DNA of 64,000 bases from Opitutia bacterium (GTDB lineage Bacteria > Verrucomicrobiota > Verrucomicrobiia > Opitutales > Opitutaceae): contig JACPIS010000009.1 in assembly GCA_016187925.1 (NCBI GenBank), forward strand, positions 124,001 through 188,000, read 5' to 3'. The translations under genes were made by a program, and so were the position numbers. Positions 6,494 to 15,356 of this stretch are shown piece by piece (position 1 is the first letter of the stretch; every line of letters starts with the position of its first letter). Below the pieces are notes generated by a model. It was not told where the DNA came from and did not search any database. It saw only the letters and a program-made list of their open reading frames with translations.

Positions 6494-6660
6494 TTTGACC
6501 ACGGATTGCACGGATAAAATGGAAAACCCGATCACCTGTCATCCTGAGCGAAGCGAAGGATCCAGCCGCATGACCGCTGGCGTGGGTGATTCTGGATTCT
6601 TCGCTTCGCTCAGAATGACGGCCGCAGATCCCATCCGAATTCATCCGTGTCATCGGTGGT
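6494..6660. repeat. composite intergenic repeat (82-bp palindrome inside an outer repeat pair)
   Basis: The inner unit at 6538-6619 starts with GTCATCCTGAGCGAAGCGAA and ends with the near-perfect reverse complement (6594-6619), so it can fold into one long hairpin. It is enclosed by GACCACGGATTGCACGGAT (6497-6515) and an inverted counterpart ATTCATCCGTGTCATCGGTG (from 6639). The same inner unit recurs at 10128-10209 and 11434-11516, and the outer left unit at 10083-10111 and 26236-26264. The gap between the PIG-L gene and the next gene is otherwise empty. Confidence 0.85.
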
Positions 6661-6683: not shown

Positions 6684-6848
6684 ATGCGCTCCGCTCCTGA
6701 AGCCACGTCCGCTCCGTCACCCACCGACGACGAACAGCGCACCGGCCTGCCGGGCCTGCGTTCGTGGCGGTCGGTCTACTGGGTGGTGTTGGGCATATTC
6801 ATCCTCTGGGTCGCGCTGCTGACCTGGCTGACGAGGCACTTCGCGTGA
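6684..6848 (+). CDS. small single-pass membrane protein, symporter companion
   Basis: A 54-residue frame with a polar, charged N-terminus (1-27) and one clear transmembrane helix at about 29-50 (Y-W-V-V-L-G-I-F-I-L-W-V-A-L-L-T-W-L), ending T-R-H-F-A. Its TGA overlaps the GTG of the following sodium symporter (GTGA), the arrangement of a translationally coupled pair. Small one- or two-helix proteins encoded directly before SSS or related symporters are known accessory partners in other systems. That role here is inferred from position only. Confidence 0.65.
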   Translation: MRSAPEATSAPSPTDDEQRTGLPGLRSWRSVYWVVLGIFILWVALLTWLTRHFA

Positions 6849-8593
6849 ACACGGTCGACTACCTCGTCATGCTCGGCGTCCTCGTCGGCATCGCCGTCTA
6901 CGGCATGTGGCGCACGCGCGGCCATGGCGATCTGCGCACCTATCTCAAGGGCGGCAGCACGCACTGGCTCACCATCGGGCTTTCCGTCATGGCGACGCAG
7001 GCCAGCGCCGTGACCTTCCTGTCCACGCCGGGCCAGGGTTTCGAAAGCGGCCTGGGTTTCGTGCAGAATTACTTCGGCGCGCCGCTGGCGCTCATCCTCA
7101 TCGCGATTGTCTTTCTGCCGATCTACCGTCGGCTGAACGTCTACACCGCCTACGAGTATCTCGGGAAACGCTTCGACGCGAAGACGCGGCTGCTCGGCGC
7201 GGTGCTGTTCCTCGTCCAGCGCGGCATCGGCGCCGGCATCACCATCTACGCGCCGGCCATCGTGCTCTCGACCGTCATGGGCTGGCGGCTCGACCTCACC
7301 ATCCTGTGCAGCGGCCTGCTCGTCGTCGCCTACACGGTGAGCGGCGGCACGCCGGCGGTGAATCTCACGCAGAAATACCAGATCGGCGTCATCTTCGCCG
7401 GCATGGTCGCCGCGTTCTTCGTGCTGCTGGCCAAGCTGCCCGCCGGCCTGACGTTCTCCGACGCGCTGACGGTCGCGGGCGGCTTCCACAAGCTCGAGGC
7501 GGTGGACTACTCGTTCAACCCCGAGCGGCGCTATACGTTCTGGTCGGGCCTGCTCGGCGGCCTGTTCCTCGCGCTGTCGTATTTCGGCACCGACCAGTCG
7601 CAGGTGCAGCGCTACCTCGCGGGCGGCTCGCTGCGCGAGAGCCGCCTCGGCCTGATGTTCAACGCCGTCTTCAAGGTGCCGATGCAGTTCTTCATCCTGC
7701 TGCTCGGCACGCTGGTGTTCGTGTTCTACCAGTTCGAGCGCCCACCGGTTTTTTTCAACCAGTCCGCCTGGCACCAGACGGCCGCGCGCGACGCCGGCAC
7801 GGCGGAAAAGCTCCGGACCTTCGAGACGGACTTCAACGCCGCCCACGCCGAGAAGCAGCAGCACCTCAAGGAATGGGTCGCGGCGCGCCACGCCGGCGAC
7901 CCCGCCGCGGCGGAGCAGGCCCGCGCCGCCACGCTGGCCGCGCACACGCGCACCGAGGCCGCGCGCGCCGAAACCCGGGCGGCGCTCAAGGCCGCCGACC
8001 CCGGCGCGCCGACCAACGATTCCGACTACGTCTTCATCAGCTTCATCCTCGGCTACCTGCCGCACGGCCTGATCGGCCTGCTCGTCGCGGTGTTCTTCGC
8101 CGCCACGTTCTCCTCGAAGGCCGGCGAACTCAACGCGCTGGCCTCGACCACGACCGTCGACCTCTACCGGCACTGGCACCAGCTGACCGGCCGCGACGCC
8201 ACCGACGCCCATTACGTCGCCGCCTCGAAATGGTTCACCGCGCTCTGGGGGCTCGGCGCCATCGCCTTCGCGCTCGGCGCGAGCCTGGCGGAGAACCTCA
8301 TCCAGTTCACCAACATCGTCGGCTCCATTTTCTACGGCGTGGTGCTGGCGCTGTTCCTCACGGCCTTCTTCCTCAAGAGCGTGCACGGCACCGCGGCGTT
8401 CAGCGCCGCCGTGATCATCCAGGCCCTCATTCTCGTTTATCATCTCTATCTCCGGGTCGCCTTCCCCGGCATCGAGATTTCCTATCTGTGGTATAACGTG
8501 CTCGGCTGCGCGTTCTGCATGATCCTCGCCGTCGTCATCCAGGCCGCACTCGACTTTCTCCGCCCGCCCTCCTCCCCCGTCCCCGCGTCATGA
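6845..8593 (+). CDS. sodium:solute symporter (SSS family)
   Basis: The product has 582 residues, with about 13 hydrophobic segments and the SSS pattern: T-H-W-L-T-I-G-L-S-V-M-A-T-Q-A-S-A-V-T-F near the start (TM1/2 with the sodium site) and G-T-D-Q-S-Q-V-Q-R-Y-L after TM6-7. It would import an organic solute (sugar, amino acid or similar) with sodium across the inner membrane; the substrate cannot be read. The GTG at 6845 is chosen for its overlap with the preceding stop; the frame is open further upstream but that part is antisense-like and non-hydrophobic. Residues about 299-394 are an unusual Ala/Glu/Arg-rich hydrophilic insertion. The gene ends overlapping the next start as ATGA. Confidence 0.9.
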   Translation: MNTVDYLVMLGVLVGIAVYGMWRTRGHGDLRTYLKGGSTHWLTIGLSVMATQASAVTFLSTPGQGFESGLGFVQNYFGAPLALILIAIVFLPIYRRLNVYTAYEYLGKRFDAKTRLLGAVLFLVQRGIGAGITIYAPAIVLSTVMGWRLDLTILCSGLLVVAYTVSGGTPAVNLTQKYQIGVIFAGMVAAFFVLLAKLPAGLTFSDALTVAGGFHKLEAVDYSFNPERRYTFWSGLLGGLFLALSYFGTDQSQVQRYLAGGSLRESRLGLMFNAVFKVPMQFFILLLGTLVFVFYQFERPPVFFNQSAWHQTAARDAGTAEKLRTFETDFNAAHAEKQQHLKEWVAARHAGDPAAAEQARAATLAAHTRTEAARAETRAALKAADPGAPTNDSDYVFISFILGYLPHGLIGLLVAVFFAATFSSKAGELNALASTTTVDLYRHWHQLTGRDATDAHYVAASKWFTALWGLGAIAFALGASLAENLIQFTNIVGSIFYGVVLALFLTAFFLKSVHGTAAFSAAVIIQALILVYHLYLRVAFPGIEISYLWYNVLGCAFCMILAVVIQAALDFLRPPSSPVPAS

Positions 8594-9363
8594 GCTCCCC
8601 TGTCATCTGTTTCGGCCAGCAACCCTGTGGTTTTTTCCCGCGCCGTTTTCTCTACGCCAAGTTCATGACGGCCCGCCGCCTCCAATCCGAGATCGGCGGC
8701 GAGATCGTGTTCTTCCTGCACGACAGCGACCACGATTGCCGCGAGACGCAGACCACGCTGCGCCACCGCAAGACCGGTGAACCCGCCACGATCAATTTCA
8801 CCTTTGCGAACAAGGTGCAGCGCAAGTGGTCGCCGCTCTTTCTCAAGCGCATCCCGGTCGACTGGCCGGCCAACACTGCGCGCCAACTCGGCGCCTACGT
8901 CGAGCCGCGCGCCATCGAGGCCTTCAAGCAGGTGACGGCGACCAACGCCGCCGACTTCTGCCTCGAGATGTACCGGCACATGGGCCTGCTCGAGGGCGTG
9001 CGCGTCGTCCGCTCGGGCGACCCGGCCGTCCGCCGGGCGGCGTGCGCGATCGACGATTTTTTCGTGGACGTGCCGCACGCCGGCGAGATCGTCCGCGCGC
9101 GTCGGCTCGGCGGCGCGCTGAAGCTCCACGAGGGCGGCGACAGCTACCTCACCCTGCCCGACACCCCCTACACCAAGGAGCAGATCAGCCCGACCCGCGA
9201 CAGCCGGTTGCGCTGGATGCAATCCGTGATTCACTGCACGCATTACATCGCCGGCGCCGGCGAACAGGCTTATCTCAACCAGGCCGACGCCCCCGACATC
9301 AAGTTCGTCAACCGCGACCCCATCGACCGCTCCGATGAAGCCTACTCCGACTTCCCGTCCTGA
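8590..9363 (+). CDS. compact BshC-like protein (putative bacillithiol cysteine-adding enzyme)
   Basis: A 257-residue cytosolic protein. Four BshC-like motifs occur in the right order: F-G-Q-Q-P near residue 8-12 (BshC GGQQ), H-D-S-D-H-D-C-R-E-T at about 44-53 (BshC GEDHDxxE), G-L-L-E-G-V-R-V-V-R-S-G-D-P (BshC GLxxxxSGDP), and I-A-G-A-G-E-Q-A-Y-L at about 222-231 (BshC AGPGExxY). BshC attaches cysteine to GlcN-malate in the last step of bacillithiol synthesis. Family members are about 540 residues with a C-terminal coiled coil that is missing here. It overlaps bshB by 29 bp, and bshA follows. Identification is by motif comparison from memory; the activity is inference. Confidence 0.65.
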   Translation: MSSPVICFGQQPCGFFPRRFLYAKFMTARRLQSEIGGEIVFFLHDSDHDCRETQTTLRHRKTGEPATINFTFANKVQRKWSPLFLKRIPVDWPANTARQLGAYVEPRAIEAFKQVTATNAADFCLEMYRHMGLLEGVRVVRSGDPAVRRAACAIDDFFVDVPHAGEIVRARRLGGALKLHEGGDSYLTLPDTPYTKEQISPTRDSRLRWMQSVIHCTHYIAGAGEQAYLNQADAPDIKFVNRDPIDRSDEAYSDFPS

Positions 9364-10082: not shown

Positions 10083-10258
10083 GACCACGGATTCCACGGA
10101 TGAACACGGATCAAGCCGCTCGTTTCTGTCATTCTGAACGCAGTGAAGAATCCAACAGGATGTGCGGTGGCAACCAGACCGGTGAATTCTTCGCTCCGCT
10201 CAGAATGACATGCTGGCGACCACTCGCTGCTTTTGTGTGTTTCGTGTATTTCGTGGTT
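10083..10258. repeat. composite intergenic repeat, second copy
   Basis: The palindromic unit at 10128-10209 (82 bp, GTCATTCTGAACGCAGTGAA at the left and CTTCGCTCCGCTCAGAATGAC at the right) is enclosed by GACCACGGATTCCACGGATG (from 10083) and by TTTTGTGTGTTTCGTGTATT (from 10231), which runs into TTCGTGGTT. It fills the gap between bshB and bshA. The left flank is the same family as at 6497 and 26236; the right flank differs from the copy at 6639, so the flanks are exchangeable modules. Confidence 0.8.
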
Positions 10259-10265
10259 AGCTCCC

Positions 10266-11399
10266 ATGCCTGACCGCCCGCTCAAGATCGGCATCACCTG
10301 CTACCCGTCCGTCGGCGGCAGCGGCATCCTCGCGTCCGAGCTGGGCGAGGAATTGGCGGCGCGCGGACACGAGATCCACTTCATCAGCTACGAGCAGCCG
10401 TTCCGCATGCCGGAGGGGCCGCGGGTGTTTTTCCACCCGGTGATCGTCAACAGCTACGATCTCTTCAAGTATCCCGACTACACCCTGCCGCTCTCGGTGA
10501 AGATGGCCGAGGTGAGCAAGGAGCACGCGCTCGACGTGCTGCACGTGCATTATGCGGTGCCGCACGCCACCGCCGCCGTGCTCGCCCGCGCGATGCTGCA
10601 CGAGGAGCACCGGCTGCGCATCATCACCACGCTGCACGGCACCGACACGACTCTGCTCGGCCGCGACCCCGGCTACGGCCCGGCCATCCGTCATGCGCTG
10701 GAGCACTCCGACGCCATCACGACCGTCTCGGAGTTCATGCGCCGCGAGACCGTGCGGCTGCTCGGCGTGCAACGGCCGATCGAGGTCATCCATAATTTCT
10801 TCGAGCCCCACCACGCCCCGCACCGCCGCACCGAGGTGCGCCGCGAGCTCGGGCTGGCCGACGGCGAAGCGCTGTTGATCCACCTCTCGAATCTCCGGCC
10901 GCTCAAGCGCATCGACCTGCTGCTCGAGACCGCCGCGCGGCTGAAGGAGCGCCTGCCCTTCAAGCTCGTCATCCTCGCCGGCGCGGACTTCTCGCCGTTC
11001 CGGGCCGAGGTGGAGCGGCGCGGGCTGGGCGACCGCGTGCTCGTCCGCGAGCGCGTGACCGACATCGAGGATTACCTCCAAGCGGCCGATCTCGGCCTGT
11101 TCACTTCGGAAACGGAGAGTTTCTGCCTCAGCATCCTCGAACTGATGAGCCTCGGCTGCCCGAGTGCGGCGTTCGACGTCGGCGGCATCCCCGAGGTGAC
11201 CGTTTCCGGCGAGACCGGCCTGCTCGTGCCGTTTGGCGACACCACCGCGCTGGCGGCCGGCATCGAAGCGTTGCTGCGCGACCCGGCCCGGCGCGAGGCC
11301 ATGGGGCAAAACGCCCGCACGCGGGCGCGCGAAGAATTCTCCGCCGCGGCCATCGTCCCACGCTACGAGGCGCTCTACCGGCGTGTCTGCGGGTGCTGA
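10266..11399 (+). CDS. bshA: BshA, N-acetyl-alpha-D-glucosaminyl L-malate synthase (GT4)
   Basis: The product has 377 residues and is a GT-B fold glycosyltransferase of family 4. N-terminal Rossmann signature: C-Y-P-S-V-G-G-S-G-I-L-A-S-E-L-G near residue 8-23. The region H-V-H-Y-A-V-P-H-A is characteristic of BshA, and the E-x7-E motif lies in S-E-T-E-S-F-C-L-S-I-L-E-L-M-S-L-G at about 280-296. It transfers GlcNAc from UDP-GlcNAc to L-malate, the first step of bacillithiol synthesis. The ATG at 10266 opens the first beta strand. It is in the same direction as bshC-like and bshB but separated by a repeat element, so it may have its own promoter. Confidence 0.9.
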   Translation: MPDRPLKIGITCYPSVGGSGILASELGEELAARGHEIHFISYEQPFRMPEGPRVFFHPVIVNSYDLFKYPDYTLPLSVKMAEVSKEHALDVLHVHYAVPHATAAVLARAMLHEEHRLRIITTLHGTDTTLLGRDPGYGPAIRHALEHSDAITTVSEFMRRETVRLLGVQRPIEVIHNFFEPHHAPHRRTEVRRELGLADGEALLIHLSNLRPLKRIDLLLETAARLKERLPFKLVILAGADFSPFRAEVERRGLGDRVLVRERVTDIEDYLQAADLGLFTSETESFCLSILELMSLGCPSAAFDVGGIPEVTVSGETGLLVPFGDTTALAAGIEALLRDPARREAMGQNARTRAREEFSAAAIVPRYEALYRRVCGC

Positions 11400-11433
11400 G
11401 CGAGGCGCGGCGATGCGAGTGGAGGCGCTGCCT

Positions 11434-11516
11434 GTCATCCTGAGCGGAGCGAAGGATCCATGGCCCCCGGCTGAACATGTACAAAAGCCTGGATTCTTCG
11501 CTGCGCTCAGAATGAC
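11434..11516. repeat. palindromic 83-bp intergenic repeat, third copy
   Basis: It starts GTCATCCTGAGCGGAGCGAA and ends ATTCTTCGCTGCGCTCAGAA then TGAC. The arms are reverse complements over about 26 bases; the loop differs from the other two copies. It lies just after the bshA stop, where it could also act as a transcript end. No outer GACCACGGAT module is visible here. Confidence 0.8.
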
Positions 11517-13703: not shown

Positions 13704-14495
13704 GTGGTCACCTCTCTCTATCGGCCGATCCGGCTCGTTGCCGGTTTGCTCTTGGCTGCCTTTCTAGCCACCCAGCCACTGCGCGCGCAGACGGTGCTGG
13801 TGCTCTTTGGTTCTTCCTCATCGACGTATGGCAATGACGTCGTCACGAAGCTCCAGGGCTCAGGACTGTATCCGGGCGGTGTCACCTTGGCCGGCAATGC
13901 CACCCCCACCTTGGCTCAATTGCAGCAGTACAATGCGGTGCTCGTATTTACCGATAGTGGCGGCTTCGTCGATCCCATCGCCGTCGGCAATGTGCTTGCC
14001 GACTACGTCGACGCCGGCGGCGGCGTGGTGGAAGCCGTGTTCTCCAACGGGAGTATTTCGATTACCGGGCGCTGGCAAACCGGCGGTTACACGGCGTTCA
14101 CCTCAGGCGGCCAAGCATCGGGGACCACCCTCACGCTGGGCACCGTCTACGACTCACTCAGCCCCCTGCTGACCGGAGTGACGACCTTCTCCGGCGGCAC
14201 CTCATCGTACTACTCCACTGGCAGCCTGCGTTCCGGAGCGATCCGCGTCGCAGACTGGAGCAACGGGGTTCCACTCGTAGCCATCAGCCCGGGCTTCAAT
14301 GGTCGGATTGTTTCCCTGAATTTCTTTCCGCCATCATCAGATATCCGCTCGGATTTCTGGGACTCCAGCACCAACGGTCTCAGGCTCATGACCAATTCGC
14401 TGAATTTCGTCTCCATCCCCGAGCCCTCGACCTGCGTGTTGCTCAGCCTCGGCCTCGTTGGGCTCTTTTGGAGGAATCGTCGGCGCCTCTGCTAA
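13704..14495 (+). CDS. PEP-CTERM sorted exported protein
   Basis: The product has 263 residues. Signal peptide 1-29 (L-L-L-A-A-F-L-A-T-Q-P-L-R-A-Q), then a Ser/Thr/Gly-rich beta-strand-rich body. It ends I-P-E-P-S-T-C-V-L-L-S-L-G-L-V-G-L-F-W followed by R-N-R-R-R, a canonical PEP-CTERM sorting tail recognised by an exosortase (EpsH). Such proteins go to the cell surface or exopolysaccharide matrix. Early strands V-L-V-L-F-G-S-S-S and A-V-L-V-F-T-D-S-G-G suggest a flavodoxin/GATase-like fold rather than a pure adhesin. The start is GTG. The following gene carries the same tail; no exosortase is in this window. Confidence 0.85.
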   Translation: MVTSLYRPIRLVAGLLLAAFLATQPLRAQTVLVLFGSSSSTYGNDVVTKLQGSGLYPGGVTLAGNATPTLAQLQQYNAVLVFTDSGGFVDPIAVGNVLADYVDAGGGVVEAVFSNGSISITGRWQTGGYTAFTSGGQASGTTLTLGTVYDSLSPLLTGVTTFSGGTSSYYSTGSLRSGAIRVADWSNGVPLVAISPGFNGRIVSLNFFPPSSDIRSDFWDSSTNGLRLMTNSLNFVSIPEPSTCVLLSLGLVGLFWRNRRRLC

Positions 14496-14528: not shown

Positions 14529-15356
14529 GTGATCACTTCGCCCTTCCGACCGTTTCGTCTTCTCGCCGCTGCATTTTGGGCCATTTGTATTCTTTTTGTC
14601 CCAAGCCGCCTGGCGGCACAGCTGGTGGTCTACGGTGTAGCGACAGACAATACCCTTTACTCGGTCAACGTGACAACCGCCACCGTCACGCTCATCGGTT
14701 CAACCGGCATTGGCTCAATGGAAGGACTCGCACTTTCTCCCGGCGGGCTGCTATTCGGCACCGACTCCAATGGGCAGCTCTATTCCATTAGCCTTACCAC
14801 CGGCCTGGCGACGTCGATCGGCAACACTGGTGTTGGCAACATCGAGGCCCTCGACTTCGCCGGCTCCACCCTGCTGGGTGCAACGTTTTCCACGTCCACG
14901 CCAACGATTTTCTCGATCGATACTACGACCGGCAGTATCACGAATCTGATCACGCTCACCTCGCCCTTGAGCGGCTCGACGCGCGCGATGGCCGTGCTTG
15001 ATAGCAATACAGTCTTTTTGACGGCTGATACGACTGGAGGCGCCAACCTATATAGGGTCGACCTTACAACCGGCACATCAACCTTGGTGGGGTTAATGCC
15101 CGGCCTTGGAGCCACGACCCACCAATTTGCCGCGATGGACATCGCTAGTGACGGCCAACTTTACGGCTTGGATAATGACGGCGCTCTCTGGCGCATCAAT
15201 CAGACCGACGCTAGCGTAACCCTGCTCGGCAATACCGGCGGGCATTTCTGGCTCGACGCGACTGCTGTCGCTGTCCCCGAGCCTTCGACCTATGCGCTGA
15301 TGACCCTCGGCCTCGCCGGACTCCTCTGGCGGAACCGCCGGCGTTTCGCTGGCTGA
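14529..15356 (+). CDS. PEP-CTERM sorted exported beta-propeller-like protein
   Basis: The product has 275 residues. Signal peptide 1-30, then repeated blade-like segments with L-Y-S-V-N-V-T-T-A-T-V-T-L-I-G-S-T-G, L-Y-S-I-S-L-T-T-G-L-A-T-S-I-G and L-Y-R-V-D-L-T-T-G-T-S-T-L-V-G. The spacing resembles DUF4394/propeller surface proteins. It ends V-P-E-P-S-T-Y-A-L-M-T-L-G-L-A-G-L-L-W then R-N-R-R-R, the PEP-CTERM exosortase signal. The GTG start lies 33 bp after the previous PEP-CTERM gene, so the two are probably co-transcribed. It ends only 7 bp from the convergent pheA stop. Confidence 0.87.
   Translation: MITSPFRPFRLLAAAFWAICILFVPSRLAAQLVVYGVATDNTLYSVNVTTATVTLIGSTGIGSMEGLALSPGGLLFGTDSNGQLYSISLTTGLATSIGNTGVGNIEALDFAGSTLLGATFSTSTPTIFSIDTTTGSITNLITLTSPLSGSTRAMAVLDSNTVFLTADTTGGANLYRVDLTTGTSTLVGLMPGLGATTHQFAAMDIASDGQLYGLDNDGALWRINQTDASVTLLGNTGGHFWLDATAVAVPEPSTYALMTLGLAGLLWRNRRRFAG

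Follow-up and report, generated by a model that had tools for sequence, protein, structure and literature searches.

A half-length BshC-like protein encoded beside BshB- and BshA-like genes in an Opitutia bacterium: a probable compact cysteine-adding enzyme

In bacillithiol synthesis, as described in a 2015 review (PMC4360819), BshA joins uridine diphosphate N-acetylglucosamine and malate, BshB deacetylates the product, and BshC presumably adds cysteine. The review adds that BshC had never been demonstrated to be active in vitro, that adenosine diphosphate occupies a second pocket in the BshC crystal, and that dimerisation requires the coiled coil. Among the papers listed, we saw no later report of such activity. 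Here we analysed 64,000 nucleotides of an Opitutia bacterium (Opitutaceae; GCA_016187925.1, contig JACPIS010000009.1, positions 124,001 to 188,000; hereafter, the window), which encode a 257-residue protein with BshC-type motifs next to BshB- and BshA-like genes. We consider it probable that this protein is a compact BshC joining cysteine to glucosaminyl-malate (GlcN-malate), a reading favoured by its predicted structure, by the comparison of profiles, by the order of the genes and by co-occurrence across genomes.

Set against BshC (PF10079 plus PF24850, TIGR03998; PDB entry 4wbd), the compact protein shares the Rossmann core, the ordered motifs GQQ, DHDxxE, R..Q and AGxGExxY, the place beside BshB and BshA, and a one-for-one replacement in genomes. 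However, it has 257 residues rather than the 521-554 of five full-length references (Bacillus velezensis, Paenibacillus, Deinococcus and two Verrucomicrobiota), it lacks PF24850, its alignment starts only at residue 82 of 4wbd, it carries a conserved Cys/His set of its own, and it stays below the curated cut-off.

At the structural level, the AlphaFold2 model (81 aligned sequences; predicted local distance difference test, pLDDT, 95.5; predicted template modelling score 0.92) has the Rossmann-core fold of BshC. Its sole PDB match at E <= 0.001 in Foldseek was 4wbd, the Bacillus subtilis BshC (E 1.7e-10). The overlay on this protein, proposed in an earlier note on the same DNA, succeeded: in VIA-align, a re-alignment of Foldseek's own top chains, the model superposed at Z 20.6, with a root-mean-square deviation of 2.7 and 18% identity over 241 of the 257 residues. 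Since 4wbd is aligned only from residue 82 to 518, about 80 N-terminal and 196 in-range BshC residues are without a counterpart. The runner-up was a class I lysyl-tRNA synthetase (LysRS; 1irx; Z 14.5, 209 residues), 6 Z units below BshC and with a different gene context; the remaining rows shown were <= 8.9. Cysteinyl-tRNA synthetase (CysRS; 3sp1_A, Z 8.0 in VIA-align) and MshC (8hfn, Foldseek E 0.21) share the broad class I fold, and the conserved Cys/His residues of the compact protein could bind zinc as in those enzymes, but their structural match is much weaker than that of BshC. According to the model, the compact protein keeps the core of BshC but not its N-terminus or coiled coil.

The earlier note had read four motifs in the BshC order, and all of them are in the open reading frame: G9-Q10-Q11, D45-S-D47-H48-D49-C-R51-E52, S142-G-D-P and A221-G-A-G-E225-Q-A-Y228. 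To follow them across relatives, we used a scan with a single-protein query and one genome per species, which found 249 relatives and returned the best 80; these are the closest ones and thus a non-random sample, with record titles all of Verrucomicrobia type. Adding 13 loci from other genomes (93 loci), the reading frame measured 253-282 amino acids. Adding instead 29 neighbourhoods from the class sample and the window locus (110 loci), all 110 carried an open copy 240 or more residues long, that of genome G241 being cut by a contig end. Among 107 distinct copies, with a lowest pairwise identity of 49%, the invariant residues were GQQ, K24, D45, D47, H48, D49, E52, R141, S142, R169, R171, R203, R206, Q211, G222, E225, Y228 and R242. 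SGDP was looser: position 143 was S in 58 copies, G in 47 and A in 2, D144 was D in 103, and P145 was P in 89.

A set of Cys and His residues (C13, H44, C124, C216 and H218) was likewise present in 107/107 copies, and C7 in 105/107. The aligned places of the five full-length BshC lack this set and hold V, G, A, F/S, T/V/A/N and A. CysRS and MshC bind zinc at Cys/His residues, and by analogy the set of the short form may be a candidate site for metal and cysteine.

Regarding sequence, profiles and alignments indicate a kinship to BshC that is weak for the window protein and real for the family. The compact family lies below the curated BshC scores (PF10079 / TIGR03998): among 13 diverse members, three matched PF10079 and three matched TIGR03998 at E <= 10 (best TIGR03998 value, 7e-4), and among the 81 members of alignment A1 one matched PF10079, at 0.056. 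L121 of genome G336, a divergent member sharing 55% identity with the window protein, reached PF10079 at 8.9e-05 with 22.4 bits, the cut-off being 27. The profile-to-profile comparison that the earlier note had suggested was made with hhalign. Because hhalign's own probability was only 3-10%, with a shallow family (effective number of sequences, 1.7-1.8), we used column-shuffled controls. None of the 200 shuffles reached the local score of 30.2 (mean 16.4, maximum 28.6), and none of 200 reached the global-mode score of 20.0 (maximum 13.8).

A permissive local alignment of the short family with full-length BshC was collinear across the motifs, and residues 2-243 of the short protein aligned in sequence to residues 82-386 of B. 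velezensis BshC. Of 37 core positions invariant in the five full-length references, 16 are identical in the short family and 21 are unmatched or unaligned; GQQ, K24, DHDxxE, R206, Q211, G222, E225 and Y228 are identical and in order. In the two full-length BshC scanned, the coiled-coil domain PF24850 begins at residues 366 and 377, and none of the 81 (A1) or 13 (A3) members of the overlapping compact sets matched it at E <= 10. A coiled coil encoded separately, as in a split gene, was not found either: PF24850 was absent from the six neighbouring open reading frames to which the check was confined. By sequence, the compact protein had only chance-level matches in the PDB.

At the genome level, we examined 236 genomes of the class and 194 of the phylum, with partly shared members; the cut-offs were 273.7 bits for BshA (TIGR03999), 182.5 for BshB1 (TIGR04001) and 27 for BshC (PF10079). 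The short protein was present in 30 of the 236 class genomes (19 genera, 10 families), and BshA over its cut-off was in the same 30. Full-length BshC over the cut-off was found in 0/236; the lone weak PF10079 match, in G336, sits on the short gene itself. In the phylum sample, where the compact protein was sought by a single-sequence query, BshA exceeded its cut-off in 15/194 genomes: 13 with the short protein and two (G046 and G126) with full-length BshC. Neither sample contained a genome with both forms over threshold, nor one with BshA over the cut-off and neither form. G168 had neither form; its BshA-like match scored 140 bits, below the cut-off. Thus, in the sampled genomes of the phylum, the short protein replaces full-length BshC one-for-one where BshA is over its cut-off. 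Moreover, a full-length bshC elsewhere in the window's own genome, which the earlier note had proposed looking for, did not appear: there was no PF10079 match at E <= 1, while the B. subtilis control was positive and Escherichia coli also matched, below the cut-off.

Two genera were mixed. In genus g6, three genomes had the short protein together with BshA, whereas a fourth, G155, had neither; in genus g16, the corresponding numbers were two and one (G108). The pair was therefore jointly lost or jointly gained more than once. As genomes share ancestry, the chance-coincidence figures (1e-38 and 1e-22) were not used as evidence.

Gene order was also consistent. The short gene lies directly before the BshB- and BshA-like genes, as the earlier note had described, and its last 29 nucleotides overlap the start of the BshB-like gene; at its other end, its ATG overlaps the stop of the upstream symporter gene (ATGA). 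Among the 80 best relatives, a BshB homologue begins within 324 nucleotides 3' of the short gene in 79; the 80th (L062) has just 414 nucleotides of sequence after it. In loci with at least 2.5 kb downstream, BshB was present in 71/71 and BshA in 67/71 (exceptions L012, L014, L034 and L039). For the class, counted as 29 carriers plus the window, BshA was in the cluster in 30/30 and BshB adjoined the short gene in 24/30, the cluster of G241 being broken by contig ends. The short protein thus occurs with BshA and BshB; six class carriers (G359, G197, G225, G228, G253 and G342) have no BshB in the cluster. All six keep the large PIG-L gene upstream, and G359 has a BshB1-like gene elsewhere in its genome.

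Taken as a compact BshC, the protein would act last in a pathway whose first two steps are known for their families. BshA would make N-acetylglucosaminyl-malate (GlcNAc-malate), and the BshB-like protein would deacetylate it to GlcN-malate. In its Rossmann pocket, the compact BshC would then bind both GlcN-malate and cysteine; it would probably activate the cysteine with a nucleotide, as its fold suggests, and would form the amide bond of bacillithiol. The first proposal of the earlier note, a compact cysteine-adding enzyme that has kept the Rossmann core, is the one favoured by the model, the profiles, the gene order and the co-occurrence.

Several results weigh against this reading. The window protein matched no family in Pfam or NCBIfam at E <= 10; the A1 family profile gave chance-level matches in the PDB and did not recover 4wbd; and the individual hhalign probabilities were low (8.0%; 9.6% local and 3.4% global; 9.2% and 9.9%). 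The protein also lacks two parts of BshC, the coiled coil and the N-terminus. Five carriers (G197, G225, G228, G253 and G342) had no BshB1 match at E <= 1e-15 genome-wide, in a search of 10 genomes, so a full pathway is not evident in them. The 30/30 match with BshA does not represent 30 independent events, because the genomes are related. Besides, BrxA/B (PF06491) was found in 0/236 class genomes and YpdA (TIGR04018) over its cut-off in 0/236, with matches below it in 17/236, seven of them among the 30 carriers. If the carriers make bacillithiol, they probably reduce its disulfide in another way.

The absence of BrxA/B, and of YpdA over its cut-off, also suits a different product: a protein with the same fold and place in the pathway could attach to GlcN-malate either another amino acid or a cysteine in modified form, yielding a different small molecule. 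The identity to BshC in the structural alignment is just 18%, and the Cys/His set lacking in the five full-length BshC means that the pocket may differ. However, GQQ, DHDxxE, R206, Q211, G222, E225 and Y228 are common to BshC, BshA is over its equivalog cut-off, and each sampled genome with BshA over the cut-off has either the short protein or BshC. We regard a different product as unlikely. We consider it very unlikely that this BshC relative serves in regulation or binding, or works on tRNA or some other acceptor as further proteins of the class I synthetase fold do, with another enzyme ligating cysteine. The second structural match, class I LysRS, would suit such a role, as would what the 2015 review says of BshC activity in vitro; on the other side stand the active-site-type residues invariant in 107 copies, the one-for-one swap with BshC, and a search of the genome at E <= 1 that gave no further candidate for BshC. 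Finally, chance resemblance or an annotation artefact, to which the lack of a family match for the window protein might point, deserves almost no credence given the open copy at every one of the 110 loci, the structure, the context and the co-occurrence.

In a 2018 survey (PMC6282198), Verrucomicrobia appear without a documented or predicted low-molecular-weight thiol; nonetheless, conventional full-length BshC is present in 2/194 genomes of our phylum sample. In a 2025 survey (PMC12719100), candidates needed more than 80% coverage and a length similar to the full-length BshC query, filters that would miss the compact form. In the open-licence library searched, no paper named both BshC and Opitut-type bacteria. 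New here is a half-size form placed like BshC but outside the coiled-coil and score criteria of that family. From it we would expect carriers, which in our sample belong to ten families of one class, to contain bacillithiol or a close analogue. If the compact-BshC reading is right, catalysis needs neither the coiled coil nor anything that depends on it. A natural half-size BshC separates the catalytic core from the rest of the protein and could be easier to assay.

Table 1. Features of the window around the compact gene (positions of the window; + is the forward strand)
Feature	Position	Strand	Evidence
Large PIG-L hydrolase, ~830 aa	3879..6467	+	PF02585 6e-14; signal-like N-terminus (by eye); beta-rich middle with NEW3-like match
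SSF sodium:solute symporter	6764..8593	+	PF00474 1.3e-34; conserved neighbour
Compact BshC-like protein, Rossmann-type core only	8590..9363	+	257 aa, ATG start; motifs, model, structural match, profiles
GQQ motif, residues 9-11	8614..8622	+	Translation; invariant in 107/107
DSDHDCRE motif, residues 45-52	8722..8745	+	D45, D47, H48, D49, R51 and E52 invariant in 107 copies
AGAGEQAY motif, residues 221-228	9250..9273	+	G222, E225 and Y228 invariant in 107 copies
BshB-like PIG-L de-N-acetylase, 242 aa	9335..10063	+	TIGR04001 134 bits; PF02585 9e-24; HPDD, SRG and HPDH motifs
BshA, GlcNAc-malate synthase	10233..11399	+	TIGR03999 408.4 bits

Of the two downstream neighbours (Table 1), BshA passes its cut-off, and its true start is likely the ATG near 10266 (by eye). 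The BshB-like protein stays below the BshB1 equivalog cut-off, though TIGR04001 is its best match.

The cluster described in the earlier note held good for BshB and BshA, but it left out the two upstream genes, which are present in most carriers. The SSF gene lies directly 5' of the short gene in 69/74 loci with at least 1.5 kb upstream, and the large PIG-L gene lies upstream in 54/58 loci with at least 6 kb. Among class carriers, SSF is present in 29/30 (not in G315) and the large PIG-L in 27/30 (not in G315, G354 and G091). Both proteins have relatives in plasmid records; the compact protein had no match among plasmid sequences. In the one Deinococcus bshC neighbourhood considered, neither of the two was among the annotations.

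A ~30-nucleotide interspersed repeat (TGTCATCCTGAGCGAAGCGAAGGATC-like) occurs at 6535-6564, 10125-10154 and 11431-11460, with one copy between the large PIG-L gene and the SSF gene, one between BshB and BshA, and one immediately following BshA.

In NCBIfam, the large PIG-L protein comes closest to the mycothiol-conjugate amidase family TIGR03446, with a match below the cut-off (2e-12). The window copy carries HPDDE and HGHH, and 29 aligned copies all have H54, D56, D57, H170 and H173. Its model (pLDDT 85.9, below 50 for the first 26 residues) matches diacetylchitobiose deacetylases over ~217 columns (E 3.7e-09). N-terminal stretches before HPDD apparently resemble signal peptides, as judged by eye; in G233 the comparison did not reach the motif. 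A search of six genomes at E <= 1e-5 gave, in G253 and G342, no PIG-L match other than this large protein.

According to a 2014 review (PMC4101496), Bca presumably allows recycling of GlcN-malate. The apparently exported PIG-L hydrolase, the SSF sodium symporter and the compact BshC together would suit a putative salvage loop. A broader version of this idea, which we hold only tentatively and think rather unlikely, is that the five genes form a second bacillithiol architecture. It would combine a minimal BshC, possibly with its own zinc-thiolate cysteine site (C13, C124, C216, H44 and H218), with recycling through the exported PIG-L and SSF proteins. Outside the cytoplasm, the Mca/Bca-like PIG-L would release GlcN-malate, its source being exported S-conjugates or, in genomes without BshB, GlcNAc-malate; the symporter would re-import it, and the compact BshC would re-charge it with cysteine. 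On this reading, part of the synthesis itself might run outside the cytoplasm in G253 and G342, given their single PIG-L match.

The full-length-BshC loci of G046 and G126 share the order bshC-bshB-bshA with the compact cluster, but they encode a full-length BshC with a methyltransferase-like gene in front. In the 18-kb stretches examined there, nothing matched the large PIG-L or the SSF protein of the window. In these two Verrucomicrobiota genomes, a gene resembling S-adenosylmethionine methyltransferases (by eye) overlaps the bshC start (L153, 738-1496; L154, 699-1496). It could be a candidate NmbA, giving N-methyl-bacillithiol.

Among the relatives of the short gene, locus L075, from a record titled Akkermansia muciniphila, is 73% identical and falls among Opitutae-type relatives; its label may be wrong. 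Further along the window, two adjoining proteins (13704-14495 and 14529-15356) end in a PEP-CTERM-like sorting signal, as judged by eye.

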